Origin: Clostridiales bacterium
GTDB taxonomy: Bacteria > Bacillota > Clostridia > Oscillospirales > Oscillospiraceae
Length of the DNA stretch: 33,557 bases
NCBI GenBank assembly: GCA_021205375.1
Contig: JAJPXR010000220.1
Location: 5,589-39,145 of the forward strand
Reading direction: 5' to 3'
Both the position numbers and the translations under genes were made by a program. Below, one piece after another: positions 252 to 17,970 of the stretch (within the stretch, counting starts at the first letter, position 1; the number at the start of each line of letters is the position of its first letter). Under the pieces are notes generated by a model that saw nothing but the letters and a program-made list of their open reading frames with translations, was not told where the DNA came from and did not search any database.

Positions 252-3200
252 ATGCCTGCCCCCACCGGCTGCCCCTTCTGCCATTCGAGCAATATTGGGA
301 TTGGCTCTGAAAAAGGCCACTGCTTCTCCTGTAACCAAGATTTCCCCCTAACCGAACAGGAAACCGAAAAGGCAACGAACCCCCTGCGGCTGTTTCTCAG
401 TTACGGCCACACGGAGCACCCCATCTGCCGGATGGTCGCCGCCGCGCTGACCCAGCGGGGCCACGACGTCTGGTTCGACAAGGACAAGCTCCACGAGGGG
501 CAGAACTGGCGAAAAGAGATTGCCGAGGGGCTGGAGAAAAGCAACGGCGTGGTGGCCTGTATCTCCGACCACTACGTGCGGCCTCGCAGTGTCTGCCTGG
601 ACGAGCTGAACATCGCCATCGGCGTGACCCGGGGCGAACACGTCCTCACCGTTCTGCTGGGGGACGAGAGCATCGTTCCCGCCTCCCTCTGCTACAACCA
701 GTGGCTGGATATGCATGACTGGGAGGACCGGATGAAGGGCGACCCAGCGGCGTTCGAGCAGTGGTTCCAGGCCAATATGCGCAAGCTGTTCGCCGCTTTG
801 GAGACGGAGGACAACCGAACCTTTTCCGGGGCCATCCAGACGTTACAGGAAAAGCTACAGGTCTCCCCCAACACCAGCCGTCAGAGCAGTCTGCTGAAAA
901 AGCCCTTCGTGGGGCGGCAATGGCTGACGAATCAGGTGGTGGCGTGGCTGGACGACCCGAAGGGCGAACGCCTCTGTTTCCTCAGCGGGGACCCCGGCGT
1001 GGGCAAGAGCGCCTTCGCCGCCAACTTCACCCACTATAACCCCCGGGTGGCGGCGGCGCTGTTCTGCTGGGCCGGAGAGAACCGATTCAACGACCCCCGC
1101 GCCGTCCTAAAAATGCTGGCGTTCCTGCTGGCCTGCCGCATCCCGGACTACCGTCGCCGTCTGCTGGCACGGCTGGACGGGGAGGACCGGCTGGGCGAGT
1201 ACAACGAGCGGGAGCTGTTTCGCGTTCTGCTGGAGGAGCCGATGCACGGCTTGATCGACGGCGAGCGGGAAACCCTCTGCATCGTCATCGACGGGCTGGA
1301 CGAGGCCGGCACCGCCGAGGAAAACTTGCTGGCGGAGACGCTGGGACGCTATATGCCCCTGCTTCCCCCGTGGCTCCGGGTGCTGGTGACGGGCCGCCCG
1401 GTGGCGGCGGTGACGCAGTCCCTGGGCAGCGGCAGGCAGATGCCGCTGGATGGCCGGAGCCAGGAAAACCTGGCGGATGTGCGACAATACTTCGAGGAGA
1501 CCCTGCGGGACCGCTGCGCCGAAACCCCGAATTGGCAGGCGTCGCTGGATGAGCTGACCCGCCGTTCCCACGGCATCTTCCTCTATGCCGAGCTGGTGTG
1601 TCAGGGCATTTTGGCGGGGAAACTGGCCCTGACCGACTGGGACAAGTTCCCGGACGGCTTGCAGGACGCCTTCACCCGCTGGTTTCAGTGGTTTTTCCCG
1701 GACAAGCGGGCGTTTGAGGCCCAGTTCGCGCTGCCCCTGGGGGCGCTCTGCGCGGTGGCGGAGCCGCTGCCCCTGGAGGAGCTGCGCCGGGTCTTTGGCT
1801 GGAACGAGAGCCAGCTCCACCGGTTCCTCCGCCGCATCGACGTGCTGCTGAACCACGGCGAGAGCGTCTTTGGCAAGGAGACGGTCACTCTGTCCCACAA
1901 ATACATTGGCGAGTGGCTGACTGACCCCCATCTCAACAGCCTGTACTTCGTCTCTGTCAACGACGCGAAGGAGGCCATGGCCGGGGCGTTCTATGACCGG
2001 TTCCAAAAAGACCCGAAGGAGCTGACCGAGTTTGAGTCCCTGCACCTGTGTGAGCTGCTATTGGATTGCGGCAAAGCTGCGGAGTGGTTTGAGGCTGTGT
2101 TCAGCGGCAATCTTTGCTGGAACATCATTAACGCCGGGGACTACTGCCAGGAGTGGGGCCACTTGGACGAGGCCATGAAGTGTTATCGTTGCGCCCTGTC
2201 CGTCACGGAGCAGGGAAAGCGCATCTTTGAAAGTTTGGAGATGTTGCGGAATTACAGCGCGTGTGCCGAACGCATTGGCGAATTGGAACGAACGGCAGGC
2301 AACCGTGGAGCGGCTCTTGACTGGTACAAGAAATCTCTGGATATCCGGGAGCGGCTGGCGGAGACCTGTGACACACCGCTGTACCAGATGGATCTGAACG
2401 TCAGCTATGAGAAACTGGGCAATTTGGCGCGAGAGGACGGGGACTGGCTGACGGCCCGGGAGTGGTACGAAAAAGGACTGGACATTACGGAGCAGCTGGC
2501 GAAATCCCGAGGCATACCGGAGGACTGGCGGGATCTGAGCGTCAGCTATGAAAATATGGGCAACCTGGCGCAGGAGGAAGGCGAACGGCAGGCGGCCAGG
2601 AACTGGTAGGAGAAATACAATTATAAACATCTGAGGCTGGTGAAGGACCGGGGTACACCGCAGGACCAGCAGGATTTGAACTTCATCTATAACAAGCTGG
2701 CATATCTGGCATGGGATGACAAAGACTGGAAGGCAGCCCGGGACTGCTACGAGAAAGCTTTGGACATTGCGGAACAGATGGCAACGACCCGCAATGTCCC
2801 GAGCGACTGGGGAGATCTGTGCATCAGCTATAACAGCCTTGGCAACCTGGCGCGGGAGGAAGGGGATCGGCAGACGGCGTGGAACTGGTGTGAGAAAGCC
2901 CTGGAAATTGCAGAACGGCTGGTAAATACCAGGAAATCGATCGAGGATTACGACTATTTGGCAATCACGCTCCTTAGCCTGGCACATATCTCCGCATCAG
3001 AGCAGGAGTGTAAACGCCTGGCGCAGCGCGGCCTCGCTATTTCAGATAAACTGTATAAGCAAACTGGGCTGCCAAAGTTCCAGAAATATTTTGATGATTT
3101 CAACAAAATATACGGTCGTGCTGAAAGCGGCGCCTATGACCAGAAGGGCGATGCAGCGTTGGAACGCGGAGATTGGCAGGCGGCGCAGGGCTGGTACGAG

Positions 3201-4352
3201 AAAGCCCTGGAGGTTCGGAAACAACAGGAAAAGGCTTGCAGTACATCAGAGAATCAACGGAACCTGCGCGTTAGCTATTTTAAACTGGGCATAGTATCAC
3301 AAGAGGCCAGAGACGTGCAGACAGCGCAATTCTGGTATGAAAAATCGCTGGACAATGCGGAGCGGCTGGCGGAAAACAGTGGTACGTATGAAGATTATCA
3401 TGATTTGATTGTCAGCCTCTGGGGACTGTCAGGTGTGTGTTCCCCTGAACAGGAGCAGGTGCGTATGGCGCAGCGTGCCCTTTCCATTGCAGAAACACTG
3501 TATAAACAAAACGGAGAACCCAGGTATCAGTCGCTGGCTGAAAAGGCCCACGAGATGTTGGATGCCCTTTTAAACAGCGTTCACGCAGTGAGCGTCAACT
3601 ATGACCAACAGGGCGATTCGGCGCTGGAACGCGGAGACCGGCAGACGGCCCGGGAGTGGTACGAGAAAGCCATAGGAATCTGGGAGCAGCTGGCAGAAAT
3701 GCGTGGCACGCCGGAGGATTGGCAGAACCTGATCGTCGGCTATCACAAACTGGGCGATCTGGTGAAGAAGGACGGCGCCCTACAGGCGGCCCGGGGCTGG
3801 TACGAGAAATCCGTGGACGTCCAAACGCGGCTGGCGGAGACCCAGGGCGACTTAGACGACTGGTGGAACCTGAGCGTCAGCGATGAGAAGCTGGGCGACC
3901 TGGCACTGGAGGATGAAAACTGGCAGACAGCCCAGGACTGGCACAGGAAAGCCCTGGCAATTCGGGAACAACTGGTGAAAGCCCGGGGTGCGCTGGAGGA
4001 CTGGCGGGGCCTGAGCATCAGCTATGAGCGGCTGGGACATTTGGCGTGGGAGAACGGAGACCGGAATGGGTGCCGGGAGTGGCACGAAAAATCACTGCCC
4101 ATTGTTGAACAACTGGCAAAGTCCAGTGGTACTATTAAAGCATACGACAATTTGACAGCTACGCTTTACATACTTGCCATTGCCTCTGACGCACAGCAGG
4201 AGCGACGGAACTATGCGCAGCGCGGCTGCTCCATTGCAGAAACCCTGTACAAGCAAACTGGGGACCCCAGGTATCAGTCGTTTATGGATGGGTTCCACAA
4301 GATACTGAAACCCAAGCGCCGTGGATTCTTTGGCAGCTTTTTCACTCTTTGA
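252..4352 (+). CDS. Zn-ribbon / TIR / NACHT-type STAND NTPase / TPR-like repeat protein, one reading frame interrupted by an in-frame TAG at 2607-2609 (possible pseudogene or readthrough)
   Basis: ORFs 252-2609 and 2640-4352 are in the same frame with no stop other than TAG between them. N-terminal CPFC...CFSC knuckles; TIR-like FLSYGHTE...DVWFDKDKL...VCLDELNIA; Walker A GDPGVGKSAFA; NACHT-like Walker B LCIVIDGLDEA; C-terminal repeats with WYEKAL...LGNLAxEEGD. Confidence 0.85.
2278..4352 (+). repeat. Helical (TPR-like) coding repeat array with an exact 141-bp (47-codon) period in three super-modules
   Basis: The codon after the conserved Trp falls at 2325, 2466, 2607, 2748, 2889 / 3195, 3336 / 3660, 3801, 3942, 4083; spacing within each block is exactly 141 nt. 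Blocks close with a cap motif AQRxxxSIxxxLYKQxGxPxxQ at about 3021, 3468 and 4215. Confidence 0.9.
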
Positions 4353-4386
4353 AATGCACGTTAAATCACCCAAAAACGCAAAACCA

Positions 4387-4413
4387 GGGCCTGCGCCGCC
4401 GCGCAGGCCCTTT
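4387..4413. terminator. Bidirectional rho-independent terminator between convergent genes
   Basis: Perfect 10-bp stem GGGCCTGCGC-CGCC-GCGCAGGCCC (4387-4410) followed by TTT on plus and T-rich sequence on minus. Confidence 0.85.
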
Positions 4414-4440
4414 CCCATTCCAATGCACTTGAAACGCGGC

Positions 4441-5010
4441 TCACCCTTCTCCCTCCGGCCCACAGAGCCGGTAGTTTTCCTCAAACTGGGGGCGGGCCAC
4501 AAAGTTGAAGCTGATGTCCGTAATTTGCCCCGCCGCGTCCCGCTGGGTCGTATACAACACCAGTGTGGCATCCCGGGCCGCGCTGAGGGGCGCGCCCCAC
4601 AGGTGGGCGTTGAAGTACCGCGCCGGGTCATTGGGGTTCAGCACCAGCCGTCCCGTCTCCAGCAAAAATTGCACTTCGGGGCAAAGCTCCTCGTCCGCCT
4701 GCCAGATGGCCACCGGGCGGCTGCGCTGTTGGTAGTCGTCCCCGGCGATGTGGCGGTGGTTCGCCAGGAAAAACGCCCGGTCGTTGGGGTAGGGGTAGTG
4801 GCGGCCCTCCACCGTGTCCACCTTGAAGTAGTCGCCGGGGTGGGCCAGCTCCCCCGCGCCGGAGGCCGCCTCCTGGCTAAACAGCTCATAGAGGCCGTCG
4901 GGCCGCAGACGAATGGCCCCCTCCCGGAGCAGGTTCTGCTCCATGGCGCTGTGTTCGCCCAGACAGTAGGCTTTTACAGTTTTGTCCGTCTTTTTGATTG
5001 CGTATCTCAT
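4441..5010 (-). CDS. Hypothetical protein of 189 aa, likely co-transcribed with the RyR/TrkA-N protein
   Basis: Complete ORF with GGAGT RBS upstream of ATG; 53-nt gap from the upstream minus-strand ORF; motif PGDYFKVDTVEGRHYPYPNDRAFFLANHRHI; no family recognised. Confidence 0.8.
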   Translation of the reverse strand: MRYAIKKTDKTVKAYCLGEHSAMEQNLLREGAIRLRPDGLYELFSQEAASGAGELAHPGDYFKVDTVEGRHYPYPNDRAFFLANHRHIAGDDYQQRSRPVAIWQADEELCPEVQFLLETGRLVLNPNDPARYFNAHLWGAPLSAARDATLVLYTTQRDAAGQITDISFNFVARPQFEENYRLCGPEGEG

Positions 5011-5063
5011 GGGTTACTCCTTGTAAGAAGGCCATGGTGAAAACCATGCCGTGTTTTCCAGGC

Positions 5064-6938
5064 TCAGGACGTCACAATGCGAGTATCCTTTCCTTTGTCA
5101 TCCTCGCCCAGTTCGTCGTAGTGGACCAGGAGGGGATGTACCTTCGCCAGGTCGTCTCTCGGCTCACCGAAAACGTATCCCTCCGAGCGCATATAGACAT
5201 TCCACCGCTTGTGTTCCAACTCCGCCAGGTGTTGTTTTTCCTCCGGCGACATCTCTTTTTCCGTTTTGCCCGCCCCCGGTATGCCGCGGGTGATCCGCGC
5301 TTTTTCGTGGATCGCGCTGGCGATGGAGGAGCGGTAATTGTATTCGTAATTCCGGAACGTCTCTTCCAGCTTCTTCTTTTCTAACGCCGCTAGTTCCGCT
5401 TTTTTTCGCTTCTCTTCTTCTGACTCCATTTCTTCCGAGGGCCCTTCTTCCGAATCCGACTGCTTCCCATACCTGAAATGGATATTGAGGGCCTTCTCCC
5501 GCAACTCGGAGTTGAGGACGGTGTTCTCGCTCCAGGCGGAGTCCAAATCGCCGATGAAGTCGATTTCGTACGCTTGCCCCTGGAAGTTTTTCAGCCCGTG
5601 CAGGGCGTTCTTTTTTTCGCCGCTCTGGACAATGGCCTTGATTTTGGGGGTGTTGTGGCTGCGCGCAAACAACATGCGCAGATAGGCAGCGGTCTCGATG
5701 TTTTTGGCGTCGTCCCCCAGGGCGACGAACACCCAGGTCGTGTCGCTTAGCTGGCTGATCGCGTCGGCAAACGCCTGTGAGCCGACGGCAACTCCCGGAT
5801 GGATGGTGATGCGGTACTCCGCCTCCCCCGGACGGAAAACGCCGTTGTATTGGTCGGACAGCAGTTCCGGACACTGGACCCGCAGCGTTTCCTCTGCCAG
5901 CGGGTCCTGGTCAAAGGCGGTGATTTGCAGGTGATAGCCGTCCATCTGGCAGAACCAGCTCAGGGCTTTGAGCAGATTGCTTCCGCACCGGCCCAGGCCA
6001 ACCAGCACCACCGAAATCAGCTTGCCGTTCTCTGTCTCCCTGGCGGTGGTGAAAAGCTCGTCCCCGCTGTCGTAGAGAAACCGGTCGATGAGGGAGCGGT
6101 CCGGGTCTATCCTGCGGACCTCCACGGTTCCCTTCTCGGCGGAGGAGAGCAGGAGTTCCCCCTCCAGATTCGTGGACTGTACATATAAGTGTGTATTTTC
6201 CCGTTTTTTGTACCGATTGAGCAGCGACAGCGCCTGTGTGGTGTTTTTGCCCTCGTCCTCGCTCAGGAGGAAAAAGTACAGCGCCTTCTTTTTGCTGTGG
6301 AACTCGTACGCTATGGCGCAAATATCCCGCTTCAGCAAAATCATTTTGTTCCGGCGGGCCTCCTCCGCCAAGGCGAGGTTTTCTTCTGGCCCCTGGTCAG
6401 AAACGCCTGTAAAGACCACCACTCTTTTTTCGTTCTTGTTGAGGAGGTCTTTCGCCAGCGTCAGCGACCTTGGGTTCAGCTCAGAGAAAACATACAGCTT
6501 CCGGTTGCGTCCGGCCAGCAAATGGAGCATGGCGAAAATATTTTGAAACAGGGAGAGGACTAAGCTAAAGGTCAGGAGCGGTGCAGCCACAAACAGGATG
6601 GCGATATAGACCGTGTATGCGTTATAAAGGAACCCGCATGTACGGGGGACCTGCTCCGTCAGGAAGGTATAATCCCCGTTTAAGAAGAACAGACAGAGGG
6701 TGTGGTAAATCGACAGGAAAATCGACTTGAAGATGCACAGCGGCTCCGCAGAGAGCGCTTCCCAGTAGACGGGGAAAAGCAGGACGGACGCAGAGCAAAA
6801 TACGGTTGCAATCAGGATATAAAGCGGGGTGAGCAGTTTTGTCATCGCGTTTTTCTGTTTCGAACGCCTGAACGCGCTCACCAGACCGACGACCAAAAGG
6901 ACGGCCGATATGGAAAAACATACTTGGAACCGGAACAT
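5064..6938 (-). CDS. Membrane protein with tandem TrkA-N/RCK-like Rossmann regions and a C-terminal RyR domain
   Basis: Several N-terminal hydrophobic helices; first region RKLYVFSELNPRSLTLAKDLL; second ISVVLVGLGRCGSNLLKAL (GxGxxG); C-terminal LAELEHKRWNVYMRSEGYVFGEPRDD, a RyR-domain-like signature. Start placed at ATG 6938 with AAAGGGGACAG RBS rather than the 6980 start. Confidence 0.75.
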   Translation of the reverse strand: MFRFQVCFSISAVLLVVGLVSAFRRSKQKNAMTKLLTPLYILIATVFCSASVLLFPVYWEALSAEPLCIFKSIFLSIYHTLCLFFLNGDYTFLTEQVPRTCGFLYNAYTVYIAILFVAAPLLTFSLVLSLFQNIFAMLHLLAGRNRKLYVFSELNPRSLTLAKDLLNKNEKRVVVFTGVSDQGPEENLALAEEARRNKMILLKRDICAIAYEFHSKKKALYFFLLSEDEGKNTTQALSLLNRYKKRENTHLYVQSTNLEGELLLSSAEKGTVEVRRIDPDRSLIDRFLYDSGDELFTTARETENGKLISVVLVGLGRCGSNLLKALSWFCQMDGYHLQITAFDQDPLAEETLRVQCPELLSDQYNGVFRPGEAEYRITIHPGVAVGSQAFADAISQLSDTTWVFVALGDDAKNIETAAYLRMLFARSHNTPKIKAIVQSGEKKNALHGLKNFQGQAYEIDFIGDLDSAWSENTVLNSELREKALNIHFRYGKQSDSEEGPSEEMESEEEKRKKAELAALEKKKLEETFRNYEYNYRSSIASAIHEKARITRGIPGAGKTEKEMSPEEKQHLAELEHKRWNVYMRSEGYVFGEPRDDLAKVHPLLVHYDELGEDDKGKDTRIVTS

Positions 6939-7139
6939 TTCTCTGTCCCCTTTCGCACCCATTTTTTGCGCCCGGAGCAATGGCGCTCATGCAGGATTTG
7001 CCGCTTCGATTTATTCTACCACATTTGCCTGCCGATTGCACCGCTTATTTCTGTTCGACAGCACATTTGATTACAGCGTGCCGTACCGGCATCGGCAACA
7101 ACAGCGTGTCAAATCGTTATCTGTCGCGCAAAAACAGGG

Positions 7140-7293: not shown

Positions 7294-8733
7294 TTATTTC
7301 CTTATCTTTTTCATTACCATGTCAATTCCTTCAAACAGCATACTGTCTCTTGTGATGAGCAGTTCCAGCGCATACACAGCAACGCCCACCGCTATCTGAA
7401 TAAGCAGCACCTTGACGCCCTTCCCCAAAACAGTACCAATGAAGTAAACGACAGCGCCCATGATCCCGCCGCAAATGAAATATTTGATCGCCGGCAGGAA
7501 GCACTTGCAAAGATTCATCTGTTTTCTGATCAAAAATGCCTGAACGACCAAAACCGAAAGCTCCGCACATACGGTAGCAATCGACGCACCGATGGCGTCA
7601 AACCGCACAATCAGGACCCAGTTCAGCACAAAGTTGACCACGGCCCCTGTGAAAACAGAGATCGTATAATATTTTTCCTGCTTCGTGGGGAGAAGATACT
7701 GCTTCCCGATCACGTTGCTCATTGCAATGAAGATCAGAATTGGCGATATGACGACCATCAGCACCGCAACTTCATCGTAACCCGGTCCGAAGAAAATCGG
7801 CACAAATGTCTTTGCCACGCCGCAGATGCCAAAGAGGATCGCAAAACCAAGCATGAAAACAAAGTGAAACGCTTTCTTGATGCTCTTTTCGATCACATCC
7901 ATTTTTCCCTGCGCGAACGCATAGGACATTGCCGGGAGCATCACCGTGCCCAGAGAAGTGACAAGCATCAGCGCCACTTTGATGATTTTTGACGCCTGCG
8001 TATAATAGCCGACCTCATCGATATTGGAAGCGAATACACCCAGCATCGTTTTGTCCAGCACAGTGTATACTTCTGTCGCAAGCTGCGGCAGGAATAAAAT
8101 AAGCGACGGTTTCAAATGCCGGAGGACGTCACGGGGATGGATAGCAACCTTCACCAGGTACTTTGGAAGCGATATCCACAAGCTGATATTTCCAATAAAA
8201 ATCGGAAGCGTCAAACACATGGTATAAATCAGCACATCTTCCGACGACTTCACGAATAAAAAGACTGCAACGATTCCAGCCAGCTTTATGATCGTGTTTC
8301 GAATGACGGTTACCTTGAAATTTTCCAGTCCCATAAAAAACCAGGAAACATCAAAGGCTGTGGCGATGATTTCAATCATCAGGATCTGATAGACAGATTT
8401 ATACTCTGTACCAAGTCCAAATATAAGGAAATAAATCAGAGCAAATAGGAATACGCCTGCACAGCGCAGCAATGTGACCTGCCAGAACACCTCAGAACGC
8501 TTTTTCTGATCGTCTCTCGCAAAGGCGATTTCCCGCTGTCCGTAAATCGTCGTACCGACTGCGCCGGCAAGCATGAAATAGGTGGCAATAGACTGCGCGT
8601 AGCTGTAAATGCCAATGCCCGTAGCGCCCAGAACGCGGGAGACATATGGCGTCGTGATCAGTGGCGCGATCAGCGCCAGGACCTGGTAGGATGTGTTATA
8701 GATGTAGTTTTTTATGACGCTTGGCTTTTTCAT
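7294..8733 (-). CDS. Wzx-like polysaccharide flippase (MOP/MATE superfamily)
   Basis: 479 aa, MKKPSVIKNYIYNTSYQVLALIAPLITTPYVSRVLGATGIGIYSYAQSIATYF typical of oligosaccharide flippases; ATGA overlap with upstream ORF. Confidence 0.92.
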   Translation of the reverse strand: MKKPSVIKNYIYNTSYQVLALIAPLITTPYVSRVLGATGIGIYSYAQSIATYFMLAGAVGTTIYGQREIAFARDDQKKRSEVFWQVTLLRCAGVFLFALIYFLIFGLGTEYKSVYQILMIEIIATAFDVSWFFMGLENFKVTVIRNTIIKLAGIVAVFLFVKSSEDVLIYTMCLTLPIFIGNISLWISLPKYLVKVAIHPRDVLRHLKPSLILFLPQLATEVYTVLDKTMLGVFASNIDEVGYYTQASKIIKVALMLVTSLGTVMLPAMSYAFAQGKMDVIEKSIKKAFHFVFMLGFAILFGICGVAKTFVPIFFGPGYDEVAVLMVVISPILIFIAMSNVIGKQYLLPTKQEKYYTISVFTGAVVNFVLNWVLIVRFDAIGASIATVCAELSVLVVQAFLIRKQMNLCKCFLPAIKYFICGGIMGAVVYFIGTVLGKGVKVLLIQIAVGVAVYALELLITRDSMLFEGIDMVMKKIRK

Positions 8734-9953
8734 TGTAAGACCCTTCGCTTTTTTCTACTCCGTTGCAGGGACGAGTTCCTATTGGATAACAGGTAAATCC
8801 CTAAAATAATTACAAATGGATTGTACGCAATATCAATAAGGTACTGATTTATAATACTGGACACCGCAATCAGCACGATTATTATCGACAATTTGAGTTT
8901 TTTTTCCAATGTCACTTTTCTTGCAATATAGGTGTATGCAATCAGCATGATCGCAAATAAAATAACACCGTAAATCATAATAATCTGCAAATAGGATGAA
9001 TCAATATAAGTTGTTCCTATCTTCGTATCATAATCATAAATTTTGTACCCGTTCCCCTGCATTTTGATGGATTGACCGAACAGAGTAAATCCATACATGT
9101 CAATCACCTTTTTACCAATTTTCAGACGATTACTAAACAACTATTCATCAAGCAAAACCCAGAAATGGCTTGAGCTAGAATACAAATAAGTGATCCCCAC
9201 AGAAAAAATGCCGCAAACCAACGTAACCCATTGCGTCGCAAAGGCAAACCGTTTACTTTGAAAAATTTTTCTCTTGTAATCATACAAAAGGAACAAAATT
9301 AACGTTGCTAAAATCATCAGCTCCGAAAGTCTCGCATTACAGTATCTATCTAAAAAAGCTATGATGAAAATATGAATAATAACATCCAATAACTTCATCT
9401 TATGCTTTCTAATATAATGGTACGCGAGAATCAAAAAGAACACATGCGCTGCAAAATCCGTAGAATAAACGATTCCAAAAGAATAACGGACAGTTCCTGT
9501 ACTTGGCCGCACCGTCGAATAATTGACGATAATTCCTGACAAACTACAGAACATTGCAATTAAAAGATAAATTGTGCCTAAAATCAAATATGTCTTAACA
9601 ATTTTTTTATCATCCACACCACGGCAACCCACGGCAAGCAAAATAAAATCCAAAAGCGTTGCCGTGCTGCTCGAAAATATGGAAATTGCAGCGAACCCCA
9701 CCAAAAGCGCAATCACAGATAATTGCTTAATGTTATAACGGTCAAGAAATGCACATTTGACGAAAATCAGGATGACAGAGAAAACTCGCACCACATTAAG
9801 GAGCGATGAGATATTCATTACCCCCTTAAAGGTGGTTGTGTTATAAAAATCACACGTAAAAAGCAGGAAAAATGCCAAAAAATATGTCACATCTTTCGCT
9901 CTCAGGGACAAAGAGATTTTCCAAGCCGAGGGCTTTCTAACTGAAATTTCCAT
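8730..9953 (-). pseudogene. Wzy-like polysaccharide polymerase interrupted by an in-frame TAG (9141-9143)
   Basis: ORFs 9141-9959 and 8730-9140 are in the same frame, separated only by TAG. Downstream half carries RLKIGKKVIDMYGFTLFGQSIKM...YIDSSYLQIIMIYG, typical of Wzy C-terminal regions. Start placed at ATG 9953. Confidence 0.8.
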
Positions 9954-10065
9954 GCTCAATCACCTACTATCAAATCGCCAAAGCAAACTATATCTATATC
10001 TCTGTTGATTTTTCCCCGCAATTTGCCTTTCGGTTTTCTGATTTTAAGGATCATATTCTCACACT

Positions 10066-11112
10066 CTATCTGAATCTCATCTTCAGCTTGGCATAAAGCT
10101 CCAATCCGAACAAAAACTTCGCCTTCATACAAACAGCGGAATACTTATGCTGGTCCTCCAGGTATTTGATCTCGCAGTTCCTGATGGCCGATGAAAACGG
10201 CTCTTCCCCCAGCGTTTTTTTCAGCTCCGCATACCGTTCCGACCTGGTTTTCGGATTCTTGGGATTGAAAAAGTATTTGCTCAACTGGGATGTCAAAAAC
10301 GCCACCTCTCGGTTGGCTTCCGCAACCACAAAGGTGTGGTCTTTTCCGGTCTCTGCAATAAACCTTCGCACAAGTTCACTGTTTCGTTTCAGGATGTCCA
10401 CGGAGACCGGTTTAAACGCATGGGTCAGCGAAGACCCAACAATGCGGTAATTGTACGTATGTTCATCGTTGTAATAAAACTTTTTAACGTGGTTCAGAAG
10501 ATATAAGCTGTAAACGCCATCGTCAAACACGCCCTTGGCGTAGGGGTCAAACCGGATGTGGTTGTCCTTGATGATGGACAGCTTGACAAATTTGCCCCAC
10601 GGCGCGGCATATCCGTTCGAAAGGCCCTTCACATAGTAAGGGCTGAATTTATGGCAGAGGACATATTTTTGAATGCTCTGGATCGTCTCTGGGTCGTCTG
10701 TAAAAAAGATTTGTGAAAACTGGTGAAGGCGTTTCTGATAAGTATCCGCCATAATGACGCAATCGGACATGATGCAATCCGCACCGGTCTGCTCCGCATC
10801 GCGCATCAGCTTCTCACAGGCGTCCAATTCGATCCAGTCATCGGAATCGACAAAATACGCCCACTCGCCGCTTGCGGCGTCAATGCCCGTATTTCGTGCC
10901 TCAGAAACACCGGCGTTCTTCTTGTGGATGACCGTTACCCTTGCGTCCTTCGCCGCGTATTCATCACAAATCTGAGGACAGTTGTCCGGTGAACCGTCAT
11001 CGACCAGGATCAACTCGAAATCCGTGTAGGTCTGTCCAAGGATACTATCCACACACTGATGAATGTATTTTTCTACGCCGTAAACCGGAACGATAAAGCT
11101 GATTTTTGGCAT
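10066..11112 (-). CDS. Family 2 glycosyltransferase
   Basis: MPKISFIVPVYGVEKYIHQCVDSILGQTYTDFELILVDDGSPDNCPQICDEYA; DSDDW motif; GGAGT RBS before ATG 11112. Confidence 0.95.
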   Translation of the reverse strand: MPKISFIVPVYGVEKYIHQCVDSILGQTYTDFELILVDDGSPDNCPQICDEYAAKDARVTVIHKKNAGVSEARNTGIDAASGEWAYFVDSDDWIELDACEKLMRDAEQTGADCIMSDCVIMADTYQKRLHQFSQIFFTDDPETIQSIQKYVLCHKFSPYYVKGLSNGYAAPWGKFVKLSIIKDNHIRFDPYAKGVFDDGVYSLYLLNHVKKFYYNDEHTYNYRIVGSSLTHAFKPVSVDILKRNSELVRRFIAETGKDHTFVVAEANREVAFLTSQLSKYFFNPKNPKTRSERYAELKKTLGEEPFSSAIRNCEIKYLEDQHKYSAVCMKAKFLFGLELYAKLKMRFR

Positions 11113-11212
11113 CTTGTTAGACTCCTTCAATTGTTTTTTGCCCGTCATTGCAATGGGATCACATACCGCTCTCCCATCAGGGTTTGATCGAAACCCGACT
11201 GTAAAAGCAGCC

Positions 11213-12121
11213 TCAGCCCTTTTTGCAAACGAACTGTACGGTATCCTTCACAATATCGGCGAAGGAATGAGGCGGCTTCCACCCCAGATCCTGATACAAA
11301 AGGCTGCTGTCCATCCCCGCGTTCAGGGCATGTTTTTCATCTGGCTGCACCAGGATATCAACCTTTTTCCCTGTGACCTTTTCGGCCTCGTCCCGGACGA
11401 GGGCAGCCATCTCTGTAATGCCGGTCTGCCCGTCCGGTCCAAGGTTGTAGACGGGCTTCCAGGAATCTGGAGCCTTCTGCAAAAGAAACGTGATCGCCTG
11501 GGCGGCATCTCTGACATCCAGGAAGGAAAACTTTTGCGTTCCCCCGACAATGGAGAGGTTCTCCCCGGCCAAAGCGCTGCAAACGAATTTATAGAGCACA
11601 TTTTGGGGGACTGTATCCGTCGGTCCCATCAGCGAGGCCAGCCTCAGGCTGCAACCAGCCGTTGCGCCCTTGGAAAAATGGACCGCCTGCCGCAGCAATT
11701 CCTCTGCGCCGCACTTTGCCAGCGCATAAAGATACCCCGGCGCCAGCTCCGAATCCTCCGCCCCCAGCATGGCTTTTTCACTTCCATACACAGACTGGGA
11801 AGAGAGATTCAAAATCCCGGCGGCTCTGTTTTCCACAGCGGCCTGAAACAGCCGCCTTGAAAAATCAAGGCTTTGCGCCAGGCCAACGCCTACGGACTTG
11901 CGGCAGAACGCCCCATGGATGATGATGCAGTTCTCGTCGATCACGCCATGGCTGTTCAGCAGGTCCTCGTTGGAGAGAATACGGACATCGCGCCCTCGAA
12001 AAAGCGCCTCCGCCTTCGCTGGCGCAGAGGTCAACGCATAAATTTCATACCCGCTGCCTTCCAGTTGCCTGACCAATTCTCTGCCCAAGTATCCGGTCGC
12101 TCCGGTAATGACTATCTTCAT
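11213..12121 (-). CDS. NAD-dependent epimerase/dehydratase (extended SDR)
   Basis: MKIVITGATGYLGRELVRQL (GxxGxxG), YALAK (YxxxK) catalytic motif. Confidence 0.92.
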   Translation of the reverse strand: MKIVITGATGYLGRELVRQLEGSGYEIYALTSAPAKAEALFRGRDVRILSNEDLLNSHGVIDENCIIIHGAFCRKSVGVGLAQSLDFSRRLFQAAVENRAAGILNLSSQSVYGSEKAMLGAEDSELAPGYLYALAKCGAEELLRQAVHFSKGATAGCSLRLASLMGPTDTVPQNVLYKFVCSALAGENLSIVGGTQKFSFLDVRDAAQAITFLLQKAPDSWKPVYNLGPDGQTGITEMAALVRDEAEKVTGKKVDILVQPDEKHALNAGMDSSLLYQDLGWKPPHSFADIVKDTVQFVCKKG

Positions 12122-12165
12122 GAAACTTTACTCCTGATACATTTTGGATTCTTTGTAAAACCGAT

Positions 12166-13470
12166 TTATTGCCCCCGATGAGCAAAAAGTCTCTCCGGCT
12201 CCATCTTGACCACCATGTTTTCTCCCTTATCGTTCAAAACCGTGATGTGCTCATTTAAATAGGCAATATCCTCTGCCATCTGTTCCCGGCTGTCACACAT
12301 CATGACAAAGCGGATCATCAGTTGCCGGAGCGTATCCCCATTTGGCGTTTCTGTCCCAACCGGATACCGGCTCTCATACTCGATGACACTCGGCGTATGG
12401 TTTACAGCTTGTTCCAGGCCCTCAATCATCCCTACTTTGCCGCCTTTCGCCACAAAGGACACAATGCCACAGCATTTCCCCTTCATATAAGGGTCCTCTT
12501 TCTCCGGGCAGAAGGTGACGCTCTTCCCAAGCAGGGCGTGTTCCACAAGCACGTGCATATAATTCACGCCGTTCGTTCTCGCCAAAAAGCGATATGGGGC
12601 CTCTCCCGCCGAGCGCAGCCCCGCCTCAAAAATGTGAAATCCAGTTTCCGGGTCATACATCCCCTGAATGAACAGCACACCGTTTTTCATCCCCAGGCTC
12701 CTGCACAGGCGGAGCATGGGTTCATTCACTTGCTCCATAAAAGCGTCCAGGAACAGGGATGGAAACACACGTGCGGCGGGGATCGTTGTTACGTTTCCTT
12801 CATGAACAGCCACGGGATAACGGTTATCCATGCAGGACAGCGTCGGCACTCCGTTGCTTACCGTATAATGCGCGGTAAACTCTTCGCCCTTTACAAACTC
12901 TTCGACGATGATTTTTCCGCAATTGGAATGGGAAAAGGAATCTCCTTCCGCCTCCGTCAACTCATCCTCATTCATGCAGATATGTACCCCGGCAGATGTG
13001 GAAGCGTCCACCGGTTTGATGACAGCGGGATATTGGATGGTCTCTAAAACCGATTCCGGCAGCTTCTCCCCTGTAAAATAGGTATGCGGACACGGCACGC
13101 CGTTTTCTTCACAAAGTCTGCGGAACTGGTCTTTGCTCTCTACGCTATCCCACTGTTCTTTCGTACAATAAAATGAAAGACCATATTTTTCGGAGAGCGC
13201 CATCGCGTTCAGCAGATTAAATTCGCTGATGCCTGCCAGAACCCCGTCAACATGTTTTTCTTCGATGAGCTTGCTCAACGCCTCCAAATCGGCTGTGCTG
13301 ATCAGGACCGCCTCATCTGCGACCCGCTTGGCAGCCGAACGCTCTGGCGGATAGTAATCCGCCACTATTACATGTGCGCCATTCTCCCTCGCATATTGGA
13401 CAATATCAGTCGCTCCTACGTTGGAGCCGAGGACCAACAAGGTTTTCCCCTGAAAAAGCTGATTATCCAT
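12166..13470 (-). CDS. ATP-grasp domain ligase (paralogue 3)
   Basis: 434 aa; LLVLGSNVGATDIVQYARENGAHVIVADYYPPERSAAKRVADEAVLIST...YPAVIKPVDASTSAGVHI...GKIIVEEFVKGEE. Confidence 0.9.
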   Translation of the reverse strand: MDNQLFQGKTLLVLGSNVGATDIVQYARENGAHVIVADYYPPERSAAKRVADEAVLISTADLEALSKLIEEKHVDGVLAGISEFNLLNAMALSEKYGLSFYCTKEQWDSVESKDQFRRLCEENGVPCPHTYFTGEKLPESVLETIQYPAVIKPVDASTSAGVHICMNEDELTEAEGDSFSHSNCGKIIVEEFVKGEEFTAHYTVSNGVPTLSCMDNRYPVAVHEGNVTTIPAARVFPSLFLDAFMEQVNEPMLRLCRSLGMKNGVLFIQGMYDPETGFHIFEAGLRSAGEAPYRFLARTNGVNYMHVLVEHALLGKSVTFCPEKEDPYMKGKCCGIVSFVAKGGKVGMIEGLEQAVNHTPSVIEYESRYPVGTETPNGDTLRQLMIRFVMMCDSREQMAEDIAYLNEHITVLNDKGENMVVKMEPERLFAHRGQ

Positions 13471-13518
13471 TCAGAATTACTCCTATTTTCTTTTCTAATA
13501 CGATAAAATGCCTTGCTT

Positions 13519-14715
13519 TTACTGAACCACAACCTGTATGTGGTCATATATATGGTTCACGGTCTCATTCATTTCATCTTGATTATCAAACCTAAGCACC
13601 AATGTCCCAATCGCAAAATTTGCCGCTGTGAATACATGAACTTCCTCTCCCGCTTTAACCCACAGATCCGTCTGATATAAATGAGGACGCAGCTTTTCAT
13701 CTGTCAGAAGTCTAACAAACTTGCCATTCTTATCGCTGTGCAAAACGATCTCCGCCCAGAATCCATCATACACGGGATCGGTCATAGGCATCACTTCGTC
13801 TCCAACTGCCGCACGAACAGCATTCTTGATTAATTCCTGTCCTGTTGCGTATTCCAGCACTTCTGCCAGACGGTTGCCACCGCCTCTTGGCGAACACTCC
13901 ATTATATACGGCTTCCCATTTGCTCCTTGCCGGGCCTCAATGTTATAAATTGAGGTTTTCAGATTCAAGAGCTTTATCAATCTCTGGATCTCGCTGCGGA
14001 GGGTATCCTGGATTTCCTGCGGCATTTCACAGGGCCATGTGTATGCGCATGGCGCATAAGGATTTTCAGCATTCAAATCAAACTTCTGGTTATTAAACGA
14101 TGCAAACACCAACTCGCCATCTATGCTAAAGCTATCTGTATCCGTCGAATCGCCTTGCTTTTCAATAAACTCTTCAACAATAAACTCGCTAGAAAGGGAA
14201 TATTCCAAGGCATTTACGATTGCACCTTTCAAGGCATTTGGATCATCTACTCTAGTGACGCCTTTACTCCCGGCAGAATCTGTAGGCTTAACGATAACTG
14301 GCCAACTAAAATCATAGGCCTCTTTCAGGGCTTCCTCCAGGGATGTATATCCTTTTGCTTTTGGGACGTTAAACCCATTTTCGGTCAGAAAATTTCGGAA
14401 CAATGCTTTATTTTGCATGATTCTTACTGACTCATACGGATTTGTCGGAAGTCCGAGCTTCTCCGCGACATAAGCTGCGGTCACGACACCGGGATCACAT
14501 GCAAATGACATAATCCCGTTCACCTGTAACTCCTGCGCTAAAACCAGAACCGCTTCCTTATCAATGATGCTGACATTATGATACTCGTCCGAATATTTAT
14601 GCGCATAATTATCAGGCAAATAGTCACAGGTAATCGTGTAATACCCCAACTCATGCGCTGCTTTTATCACCGGCCGAAGATATCTTGATCCGCCAAGTAA
14701 CAGCACTTTTTTCAT
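13519..14715 (-). CDS. ATP-grasp domain ligase (paralogue 2)
   Basis: MKKVLLLGGSRYLRPVIKAAHELGYYTITCDYLPDNYAHKYSDEYHNVSIIDKEAVL...WPVIVKPTDSAGSKGVTRV...FIVEEFIE; RBS GGAGGTG before ATG 14715. Confidence 0.92.
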   Translation of the reverse strand: MKKVLLLGGSRYLRPVIKAAHELGYYTITCDYLPDNYAHKYSDEYHNVSIIDKEAVLVLAQELQVNGIMSFACDPGVVTAAYVAEKLGLPTNPYESVRIMQNKALFRNFLTENGFNVPKAKGYTSLEEALKEAYDFSWPVIVKPTDSAGSKGVTRVDDPNALKGAIVNALEYSLSSEFIVEEFIEKQGDSTDTDSFSIDGELVFASFNNQKFDLNAENPYAPCAYTWPCEMPQEIQDTLRSEIQRLIKLLNLKTSIYNIEARQGANGKPYIMECSPRGGGNRLAEVLEYATGQELIKNAVRAAVGDEVMPMTDPVYDGFWAEIVLHSDKNGKFVRLLTDEKLRPHLYQTDLWVKAGEEVHVFTAANFAIGTLVLRFDNQDEMNETVNHIYDHIQVVVQ

Positions 14716-14772
14716 GCCGCGCACCTCCATTCATAAGAATAGAGGTCTTCGATCAATGGGGTAGCGGCAATA

Positions 14773-15996
14773 TCAACGATAACTAGGAGCAGTACCCCCC
14801 CCCTGGACAATTTTCACATCTATAGATTGATTTATATTCTCCAGCATAAAATCCATTTCCTCCTGATTTTTGAACTTCAAGAAAATAATTCCGATCGCCT
14901 TGGCTGCATTGTCGAAGTATTCTACAGGGTCGCCCGGCTTCTTGTACACACATTCTTTCACGATATGTTCTTTCAGCTCTTCCGAATACTCGATTCCTTC
15001 GAAAGCGCCATTTTCCGCTGTGTGTAGATTGTGGGTGGCATAATACAACGTCCCTTTGGTTTCCTGGATGTCGATTGGCATCCCCATAGCAACGCGCACC
15101 GACATCTCAACCACATCCGTGTCAAATATCATACCCAGCAGATCGGGGATCATGTTCCCGCCGCTCCTGGGGCCAATGTCGATGGGCCACACTCTGTCAT
15201 TTTGATCGACGACCAACTCCACGTTCATCGGACCGGACACAATGCCGAGCTTATCGACCATCCTCTGCAAAGTGTCTTTCACATGTTCCGTATCCACTTC
15301 GCTTAACAGCAAAGGATAACTTTTCCCTACCGGGACCAATGGATTCACACGGTTGTCCCTGTGGCAGTTCATAAGGCCCCATTGGATCACCTTTCCCTCA
15401 TATACAAAGATGTCTCCGCCGATCAGGTACTTATGCTTCTTTTCAATATACTCTTCCACGATCAGGCGATGGGTTCTTGAAAAGGAAAATGCAAATTCCG
15501 CTGCCTGCGACAACCCGTCCCAACTGTGAAGCACGGTTGCTCCCTTGCTCCCGGAAGAGTCAACAGGCTTTACAATGACCGGAAGGCGATAGCGGCAGAT
15601 GTCCTTCTCAATTTCCTGCTGCGCTGCATAGCCGTTCGACACTGGCGCACAAAAGCCGTTTTCCTGCAAAAATCGCCGGAACTTATCCTTATTACACAGG
15701 ATTTGAACAGATTCATACGGATTCCCCGGCAGTCCCAGCTTCTCCGCCACATACGCGGCGGTGGGCGCCGCCGGGTCGGAGGCGTAGGCAAGGACGCCGT
15801 CGATTTTTTCCTTTTCTGCCACTTTCAAAACGGCTTCCTTGTCCGTCGTGCTGACCAGATAAAAGCGGTCCGCCGCGTACTGCCCCGGATTATCCGTGAG
15901 ATAATCACAGAGTACCGTGTAAAAGCCCAGTCTCTTTGCGGTCTCGATTGCAATGACCTGCTGCGCAGACCCGCCGAGTAACAGTATCTTTTTCAT
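14773..15996 (-). CDS. ATP-grasp domain ligase (paralogue 1)
   Basis: MKKILLLGGSAQQVIAIETAKRLGFYTVLCDYLTDNPGQYAADRFYLVSTTDKEAVL...LPVIVKPVDSSGSKGATVL...LIVEEYIEKKHKYLIGGD; overlaps the upstream stop by ATGA. Confidence 0.92.
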   Translation of the reverse strand: MKKILLLGGSAQQVIAIETAKRLGFYTVLCDYLTDNPGQYAADRFYLVSTTDKEAVLKVAEKEKIDGVLAYASDPAAPTAAYVAEKLGLPGNPYESVQILCNKDKFRRFLQENGFCAPVSNGYAAQQEIEKDICRYRLPVIVKPVDSSGSKGATVLHSWDGLSQAAEFAFSFSRTHRLIVEEYIEKKHKYLIGGDIFVYEGKVIQWGLMNCHRDNRVNPLVPVGKSYPLLLSEVDTEHVKDTLQRMVDKLGIVSGPMNVELVVDQNDRVWPIDIGPRSGGNMIPDLLGMIFDTDVVEMSVRVAMGMPIDIQETKGTLYYATHNLHTAENGAFEGIEYSEELKEHIVKECVYKKPGDPVEYFDNAAKAIGIIFLKFKNQEEMDFMLENINQSIDVKIVQGGGTAPSYR

Positions 15997-16847
15997 TCAC
16001 TTTTCTCCATGCCTAGTTCCGCAAAGGCCCGGTCAATATACTTCTGCTCGACCCCGTCCAGGTTTATGACCCGGCCACAGGTGTCGTACCCCATAAACGT
16101 CCCGATTTTGACATTGGCTCTGGCAGAAGCATTCTTTCGGTTGAGCGCAAATTGCACCAGGCGAACCATCATCTTACAGTCGGTCAGAAAACTGACATGC
16201 TCGATGTACCAAACGTCGTTATCCAGCTTTTCCTGCCATGTCCACACGTGGTCAATGGCCTCATGCGGCGGACACTCCAAACCGGGCCTTACGGAGAGCC
16301 GCGCCTTGTGCCTGGCATTATATCGGCCAAGGTATTCCGGCGGCAATGGCCGCGGCCCGATCAGGCTCATGTCGCCCTTCAACACAGACCAGAAATTCAA
16401 CAGCTCGTCCAGGGAAGTTTTCCGAACGAACCTGCCCCATTTTGTCACACGCTGGCCAGGCGGGAGCAGTTCTCCCTTTTCATCCACTTCATTCGTCATG
16501 TTGCGGAACTTGACGATTTTAAACGGTTTCCCGTTTCTTCCGGTCCGCTCCTGTAGGAAAAACAGCGGCCTTCCCACGTCAAAGAAGGTAACGATCCCAA
16601 TGACAAAATTAATCGGCAGCGTGACGATCACAGCAAGCAGCGAAACGATAATATCGATCAGCCTTTTTATGTATTTGGAATAAATGCCTTGCCTTGGATG
16701 GACTTTTTCCAGCTTTGCATTTATTTCCGGGAGGCGCTCCTCCGCAAGCCAATCTGCGATTTGCCAGCGCATCGCTTTGGTCAGCTCTGCCCTGTCGTGG
16801 TGTGGCGTCTCTGTTACGGCAGTCGGCCCCATTCCTTCTGTTTCCAT
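15993..16847 (-). CDS. Bacterial sugar transferase (undecaprenyl-phosphate monotopic phosphoglycosyl transferase)
   Basis: KRLIDIIVSLLAVIVTLPINFVIGIVTFFDVGRPLFFLQERTGRNGKPFKIVKFRNM...RKTSLDELLNFWSVLKGDMSLIGPRPLPPEYL. Confidence 0.96.
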   Translation of the reverse strand: METEGMGPTAVTETPHHDRAELTKAMRWQIADWLAEERLPEINAKLEKVHPRQGIYSKYIKRLIDIIVSLLAVIVTLPINFVIGIVTFFDVGRPLFFLQERTGRNGKPFKIVKFRNMTNEVDEKGELLPPGQRVTKWGRFVRKTSLDELLNFWSVLKGDMSLIGPRPLPPEYLGRYNARHKARLSVRPGLECPPHEAIDHVWTWQEKLDNDVWYIEHVSFLTDCKMMVRLVQFALNRKNASARANVKIGTFMGYDTCGRVINLDGVEQKYIDRAFAELGMEKSE

Positions 16848-16866
16848 TTGCTTATCCTCCGAAAAA

Positions 16867-17970
16867 TCACTTGCGCAAAATCAGATCGCAAATCCGCTCA
16901 ACCTCATCCAGCTCCAAATCGGCATACATCGGCAGGCACAGGATGTTCATGGAGACGTTGTGCGCCACCGGTGTTTTCTGGAGCTTGAATCTGCCGGCAT
17001 AGCACTCCAGCTCGTTTGTGGCCGGGAAGAAATACCGCCTTGCGTGGATGTCATGCCGCATCAAACGGTCGTAAATATCATCTCTGCTCTTGCCAAACAT
17101 CCTCGGATCAACGTAAATCGGATAATAAGCGTAATTAGGAACGACGCCCTCTCTCAGTTTCATCAGACGGATACCGGGAACCGCTCCCAGCCGCTCATCG
17201 TATTTCTCCGCAACCGCCTTCCGCTTTGCAATGTTTTCGTCAACGTGCCGCAGGTTGCAAATGCCCATCGCAGCGCGGAACTCATCCATCTTCGCGTTGC
17301 CGCCGATGCCGGTCACGCGGTCCTCCCCGTGGATGCCAAAATTTTTCAGTTCGTGGAGGCGGACACGATAGTCGCTGTCGCTGAACGAGATTGCCCCGCC
17401 CTCGATGGTGTTGAACACCTTGGTCGCGTGGAAGCTGAACATGCACATATCGCCAAAATTGCCCACGCCGACGCCCTTGTACGTAGTCCCAAAGGCGTGC
17501 GCGCCGTCGTAGAAGACCTTTAGGCCGTGCCGGTCCGCGATCTCCTGAATGGCTTCCACATCACACAGGTTCCCATAGACATGCACCGGCATGATGGCCA
17601 CCGTCCTGGGCGTGATTAAATCTTCAATTTTTGAGACGTCGATGGTATAATCTCGCGGGTCGATATCACAAAAGACAGGGACAAGGTTCTTTCTCACGAT
17701 TGCATGGGTCGTCGAAACAAAGGTGTAAGGTGTGGTGATCACCTCTGACCCAGCCGGAAAGTCAAACGTTTGCAGGCCCATTTCCAGAGCCAAATGTCCG
17801 TTGGCAAACAGGGAAAGCTGCGGCACGTCAAGGTAGTCCATCAACTGGTGCTGGAGCTTCTTATAGACCGGCCCCATGTTCGTCATTCGTTTCGACTCGA
17901 AAATAGGCTTGATTTCTTCAATATATTCCTCCATCGAGGCAATCGAAGACTGCGTGACAAAAGTACTCAT
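16867..17970 (-). CDS. DegT/DnrJ/EryC1/StrS PLP-dependent sugar aminotransferase
   Basis: ALEMGLQTFDFPAGSEVITTPYTFVSTTHAIV...VYGNLCDVEAIQEIADRHGLKVFYDGAHAFG...FSFHATKVFNTIEGGAI; GGAGGAAGAG RBS. Confidence 0.96.
   Translation of the reverse strand: MSTFVTQSSIASMEEYIEEIKPIFESKRMTNMGPVYKKLQHQLMDYLDVPQLSLFANGHLALEMGLQTFDFPAGSEVITTPYTFVSTTHAIVRKNLVPVFCDIDPRDYTIDVSKIEDLITPRTVAIMPVHVYGNLCDVEAIQEIADRHGLKVFYDGAHAFGTTYKGVGVGNFGDMCMFSFHATKVFNTIEGGAISFSDSDYRVRLHELKNFGIHGEDRVTGIGGNAKMDEFRAAMGICNLRHVDENIAKRKAVAEKYDERLGAVPGIRLMKLREGVVPNYAYYPIYVDPRMFGKSRDDIYDRLMRHDIHARRYFFPATNELECYAGRFKLQKTPVAHNVSMNILCLPMYADLELDEVERICDLILRK

Follow-up and report, generated by a model that had tools for sequence, protein, structure and literature searches.

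A TIR-NACHT-TPR gene next to a RyR-domain membrane protein with a gating-ring fold: a candidate Thoeris-like immune module in a gut bacterium

Does a bacterial TIR protein pass a signal to a membrane protein carrying a ryanodine receptor (RyR) domain, or do the two genes lie side by side as independent neighbours? The question is raised by a three-gene set, a mobile unit in a gut bacterium, in which a TIR-NACHT-TPR gene converges on an operon encoding a RyR membrane protein and a 189-aa protein, here termed P189. The window, i.e., the whole stretch of 33,557 nt that was analysed, comprises positions 5589–39145 of contig C6, a 39-kb contig in a draft genome of 262 contigs that is probably an Oscillospiraceae MAG. 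An earlier note on this DNA had proposed a TIR/NACHT/TPR sensor, a 189-aa ORF and a RyR/TrkA-N multi-TM protein, and every one of them is present. The window begins with an N run and low-complexity, C-rich sequence, which leaves the 5′ flank of the TIR gene uncertain; the extremely C-rich positions 1–115, straight after the N gap, probably arose artificially, during assembly or sequencing, where scaffolds were joined. Positions 7294–17970 of the minus strand hold a polysaccharide gene cluster (flippase, glycosyltransferase, epimerase, sugar transferase, DegT aminotransferase, and an unusual run of three consecutive ATP-grasp genes). Our preferred reading, to which we give a probability of about 60%, is that the set forms an immune (conflict) module that, like Thoeris, works in two steps.

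The first part of the sensor gene (252–2609, plus strand; ORF calling and Pfam) encodes 785 aa. Its N-terminus carries a zinc-ribbon-like CxxC...CxxC motif, followed by a TIR domain (aa 48–161, positions 393–734; TIR_2, E = 8e-20). Residue E118 (codon 603–605) occupies the position of the NADase glutamate, and a glutamate is found here in all 34 TIR domains compared. The TIR domain is followed by a NACHT/NPHP3_N-type STAND NTPase (aa 223–382, positions 918–1397; NPHP3_N, E = 5e-20) with a Walker A motif, GDPGVGKS, at aa 246 and a Walker B motif, CIVIDGLD, at aa 343, and then by TPRs that run up to aa 785. At this point an in-frame TAG (2607–2609) splits the TPR region; the same frame stays open for another 580 codons (2610–4352, plus strand; ORF calling and Pfam), which encode further TPR repeats and include a GTG-start ORF at 2640–4352. 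The sensor of the related locus L048 lacks this stop and is an uninterrupted protein of 1143 aa. Reading the TAG as a sense codon was rejected: TAG also terminates other genes of the window and relatives carry a sense codon at this site, so that a nonsense change or a MAG error is the simpler explanation. With this in-frame stop, the sensor encoded in the window may have no activity. According to the Avs profiles it is not a member of that group (Avs1b, E = 0.018, 10 bits of a 1924-position model), and the match of Avs1b to the L048 sensor is likewise very weak (E = 4e-4).

The presumed partner is encoded on the minus strand at 5064–6980 (ORF calling, Pfam and structural model). Homologues favour the ATG at 6938 as the likely true start, giving a protein of 624 aa. 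An AlphaFold model built with 45 homologues as input (pLDDT 90.6) shows hydrophobic helices at the N-terminus, a pair of Rossmann units and the helices of the RyR domain. In this model the hydrophobic N-terminus (6513–6938; helices 2–40, 52–75, 82–98 and 117–156) looks like the S5-P-S6 part of channels. The TVGYG K+ selectivity filter is absent from the protein, and the consensus of the P region reads [DN]G[DE][FY]. The tandem Rossmann region (aa 157–505, positions 5466–6512), with a conserved GxGxxG at aa 328–333, adopts an RCK-like gating-ring fold: Foldseek searches with the model returned the gating rings of TrkA, CASTOR and Slo1/Slo2 with probability 1.00 at whole-length TM-scores of 0.3–0.4. 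The modelled relationship thus lies at the level of the fold, and by sequence the TrkA_N match in Pfam is sub-threshold. Like TrkH-TrkA, CASTOR and Slo1/Slo2, the window protein has a tandem Rossmann gating ring beneath transmembrane helices; unlike them, it lacks TVGYG and carries an additional RyR domain at its C-terminus. That it acts as a membrane pore effector has about an even chance of being right. No RyR protein was found on plasmids. The same genome encodes a second RyR-like protein on contig 85 (L004:192–2129; RyR 8e-4, below the cut-off), which contains a K+ channel domain (Ion_trans_2, 1.7e-14) with a TVGYGDT filter and has no evident TIR ORF beside it.

The RyR domain spans aa 582–638 (5067–5237, minus strand). 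Its Pfam score, 27.1 bits for PF02026, falls just below the cut-off of 27.4, but comparison with solved RyR structures confirms it (2.8e-9 for the Bacteroides thetaiotaomicron RyR domain, 7e-9 for RyR1). Residues H590, W593, H615 and D632 are invariant in 76 of 76 homologues of the RyR protein and correspond, with identical spacing, to H75, W78, H100 and D117 of RyDEP, which bind ADPR/cADPR (PMC13232231). Conservation of this pocket in the aligned sequences supports predicted binding of an ADP-ribose-type ligand. The same residues lend themselves to a different explanation, namely that the TIR protein alone causes abortive infection by NAD depletion while the RyR protein serves as self-protection or off-switch, binding or hydrolysing NAD products or restoring ion balance: H590 and D632 match the catalytic pair H75 and D117 of RyDEP, and some bacterial TIR defence NADases work without a separate effector, as PMC12847820 describes for SpbK. 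However, an enzyme that degrades a signal would not need a membrane gating-ring protein, and among eight other phage RyDEP homologues tested none cleaved the signals whereas six bound 2′/3′cADPR (PMC13232231), which makes an off-switch unlikely. Hypothetical proteins in phage records GU396103, OP867024, MK919473 and OP413831 (Aeromonas, Gordonia, Arthrobacter, Klebsiella) match the window's RyR domain and are likely RyDEP-family candidates for counter-defence.

If a TIR-made signal reaches the RyR domain, the two genes should be associated beyond this locus. Some 85,000 species genomes were scanned, yielding 80 loci with the RyR protein, for which TIR genes were detected with a profile seeded with Pfam-confirmed examples. 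In this survey, which rests on about 20 kb fetched per locus, greedy ORF calling, truncated contigs and MAG data, a TIR gene was present in the fetched stretch of 24 loci. Across 50 genomes with a TIR density of 190 in 113 Mb, 18 of 50 RyR loci had a TIR gene compared to 1.7 expected, i.e., TIR genes are about tenfold enriched near RyR/TrkA-N genes (P ~3e-15, a value uncorrected for kinship and for a general tendency of defence genes to cluster). Most TIR genes at RyR loci (23 of 28) lie within 3 kb of the RyR gene, 22 of the 23 on the same strand; gaps of 10–70 bp are common and many loci are operon-like. With RyR proteins clustered at 60% identity, the arrangement spans 19 of 40 clusters, and on the RyR tree the TIR label is so scattered that well-supported branches require a minimum of five changes. 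Co-occurrence of TIR and RyR/TrkA-N genes, as suggested in the earlier note, therefore exceeds chance, but its STAND component does not hold as a general feature, since most partners are LRR, TPR or WD40 proteins (TIR-LRR, TIR-BspA-LRR, TIR-TPR and TIR-WD40).

The same association emerged from searches with queries other than the RyR protein. A P189-only search of order, class and family samples found eight other genomes, in three of which (L039, L147 and L149) an RyR gene is adjacent; L039 and L149 also have a TIR gene. L149 is a compact operon of TIR-TPR, P189 and RyR, L147 has RyR followed by P189, and in L039 a kinase protein with an RyR motif precedes P189, convergent with a TIR-kinase gene. 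In L147 and L149 the large protein is named RyR by its TM/Rossmann layout, an EHRRW motif and weak similarity to the window protein in BLAST; neither of the two scored E = 0.1 or better with the Pfam RyR profile. A sensor-only search of 331 genomes of the family showed the NACHT sensor to be rare (2/331) and added one relative, L146, where a single TIR-NACHT-TPR protein (7809–11249) ends in a RyR domain (PF02026, 96.7 bits, E = 1e-27; 1e-38 to 1e-39 against RyR1/RyR2 structures). The second His is replaced in this fused copy, which may therefore use ligand differently. Downstream of the fusion (L146:11356–18053) lie genes for a 589-aa protein, a PP2C phosphatase and a 1395-aa kinase/RyR-motif/Card1-like protein. 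Here, as in L039, there seems to be a RyR system based on a kinase. Chance neighbourhood is ruled out by the enrichment, the bias in strand and adjacency, and the TIR-RyR fusion. The independence of the two units, which the earlier note had allowed for, is unlikely given the enrichment, the operonic loci, the recurring trio and the TIR-NACHT-TPR-RyR fusion, and TIR and RyR are very probably functionally linked.

In about 56 of the 80 RyR loci the fetched stretch contains no TIR gene; Tubulin_2/transglutaminase, Clp-FtsH, Card1-like or unremarkable neighbours are found instead, suggesting that the RyR protein may also respond to other inputs. A recurrent operon, in up to 20 loci (L035, L068, L072, L103, L106, L109, L123 and others), consists of Tubulin_2 (c6), a 740-aa protein (c4), a membrane/transglutaminase protein of about 1900 aa (c1) and the RyR protein. 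A Clp-FtsH double AAA protease adjoins RyR proteins in 10 loci, including L056, L055, L060, L067, L102 and L112; the L112 operon additionally encodes a 94-aa RyR-only and a 110-aa TIR-only protein. Card1-like CARF nucleases occur in six loci (L046, L060, L082, L090, L111 and L120), in several of them directly beside the RyR gene, e.g., at L120:8633–9898. Wide occurrence of the RyR operon in housekeeping contexts apart from TIR/STAND genes had been named beforehand as speaking against a joint system. The share of homologues without TIR, about 70%, counts against it; the TIR link is nonetheless beyond chance. The same share, together with the K+ channel paralogue L004, would fit a RyR protein that is a general stress or ion-homeostasis sensor of NAD metabolites, brought near TIR genes through shared variable islands. 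Since same-strand gaps of 10–70 bp, a conserved trio and a TIR-RyR fusion exceed what island clustering provides, we regard this explanation as improbable.

The complete trio is kept in the window and in two related MAGs (L047/L127 and L048), although the sensor gene of L047 is split over two contigs. These two closest RyR loci share 82% and 68% overall identity with the window's RyR protein and 94–95% with its P189. The neighbours on the RyR side vary, being polysaccharide genes in the window, ABC transporters in L047 and a type III-B CRISPR-Cas set in L048. Between the window and L047, synonymous divergence is near-equal across the three genes (dS 0.25–0.29), and P189 is under the strongest purifying selection, with a dN/dS of about 0.12 compared to 0.31 for TIR and 0.38 for RyR. 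In L048 the dS of P189 is below that of the neighbouring genes, indicating that some recombination around it is likely.

P189 is the second gene of the RyR operon (4441–5010, minus strand, ORF), separated by a 53-bp gap. Pfam gave no match up to E = 10 across nine members. The structural model is confident (pLDDT 90.1); its fold has no match in the PDB and resembles only predicted phage and giant-virus proteins, one of them a phage protein named PGDYG (Foldseek probability 0.95, but E = 0.19). Membership in PGDYG (PF14083) was rejected, as it is without sequence support and the resemblance is at the level of fold only; a genome search with PF14083 had no match anywhere and is uninformative for P189. 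P189 itself was not found in phages or viral contigs. It adjoins RyR genes in L039, L047, L048, L076, L147, L149 and the window, in several arrangements. In L148 it adjoins a PP2C gene. We would guess that P189 regulates the RyR protein in an accessory role; a toxin-antitoxin-like pair of P189 and RyR with TIR as an independent neighbour in this clade, to which this adjacency and the high conservation of P189 could point, is highly improbable, because P189 is missing from most RyR loci, its homologues L037, L038 and L139 have no adjacent RyR gene, and TIR is present in L039 and L149 too.

TIR domains of relatives make NAD-derived signals. In the Thoeris-like reading, the NACHT and TPR parts of the sensor would detect an intruder and oligomerise, and the TIR domain would produce an ADP-ribose-type signal from NAD+. 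The RyR domain, the probable receptor of this product, would take it up in its H/W/H/D pocket, whereupon the tandem RCK gating ring could open or deform the membrane part, which may be an ion-conducting pore, leading to growth stop or cell death; P189 might adjust the response of the RyR protein. Domains, catalytic and ligand residues, gating-ring fold, linkage and fusion are the observed basis of this model. Against it count the convergent layout here versus the co-directional one elsewhere, the rarity of the NACHT sensor, the TAG and the missing K+ filter. The module may serve in phage defence; the only context bearing on this is the type III-B CRISPR-Cas set beside L048.

As in Thoeris, a TIR protein with the catalytic Glu lies beside an effector with a nucleotide-pocket domain, and the pairing of a membrane part with an ADPR-binding domain is reminiscent of the TM-macro form (PMC11204291). 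In contrast, the receptor here is RyR on a tandem-RCK ring rather than SIR2-SLOG (ThsA) or TM-macro, and TIR is fused to NACHT-TPR (LRR, TPR or WD40 elsewhere), whereas ThsB of Thoeris is small. The trio of the window has no SIR2, SLOG or macro match and thus falls outside the definition of Thoeris effectors; given its presumed Thoeris-like working, we class it as a variant of TIR-signal immunity. RyDEP shares the H/W/H/D ligand residues and their spacing, but RyDEPs come from phages and remove the signal by degradation or sequestration (PMC13232231), whereas here the domain is part of a bacterial membrane protein paired with TIR. The sensor resembles Avs/NACHT STAND defence proteins in combining an effector domain, a Walker A/B STAND NTPase and repeats; it differs in its very weak match to Avs1b only and in its RyR partner. 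Animal ryanodine receptors have the RyR domain (R12/RyR repeats) in common with the window protein, but carry paired repeats in a giant Ca2+ channel, compared to a single copy on a bacterial RCK-like protein. The literature searched describes no bacterial TIR/RyR-channel operon; an earlier prediction is possible, the likely place being Burroughs et al. 2015, NAR.

More tentatively, with somewhat less than even odds, these loci represent a bacterial cADPR-type axis, in which a RyR domain, as direct receptor of the TIR product, controls the gating of an RCK membrane channel that acts as immune effector. Such an axis would be a mechanistic counterpart, and possibly an ancestor, of animal cADPR-ryanodine-receptor signalling. 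A decades-old debate concerns the direct action of cyclic ADP-ribose on ryanodine receptors. With a RyR domain that retains an intact pocket on a gating ring beside a TIR enzyme, and with a relative that joins a RyR domain to such an enzyme in one protein, direct binding and gating become testable in simple systems. TIR-based immunity gains a probable new effector class, and phages would have reason to carry RyR-domain proteins as counter-defence. The recurrent pairing and the fusion suggest a bacterial version of cyclic-ADP-ribose-to-ryanodine-receptor signalling.
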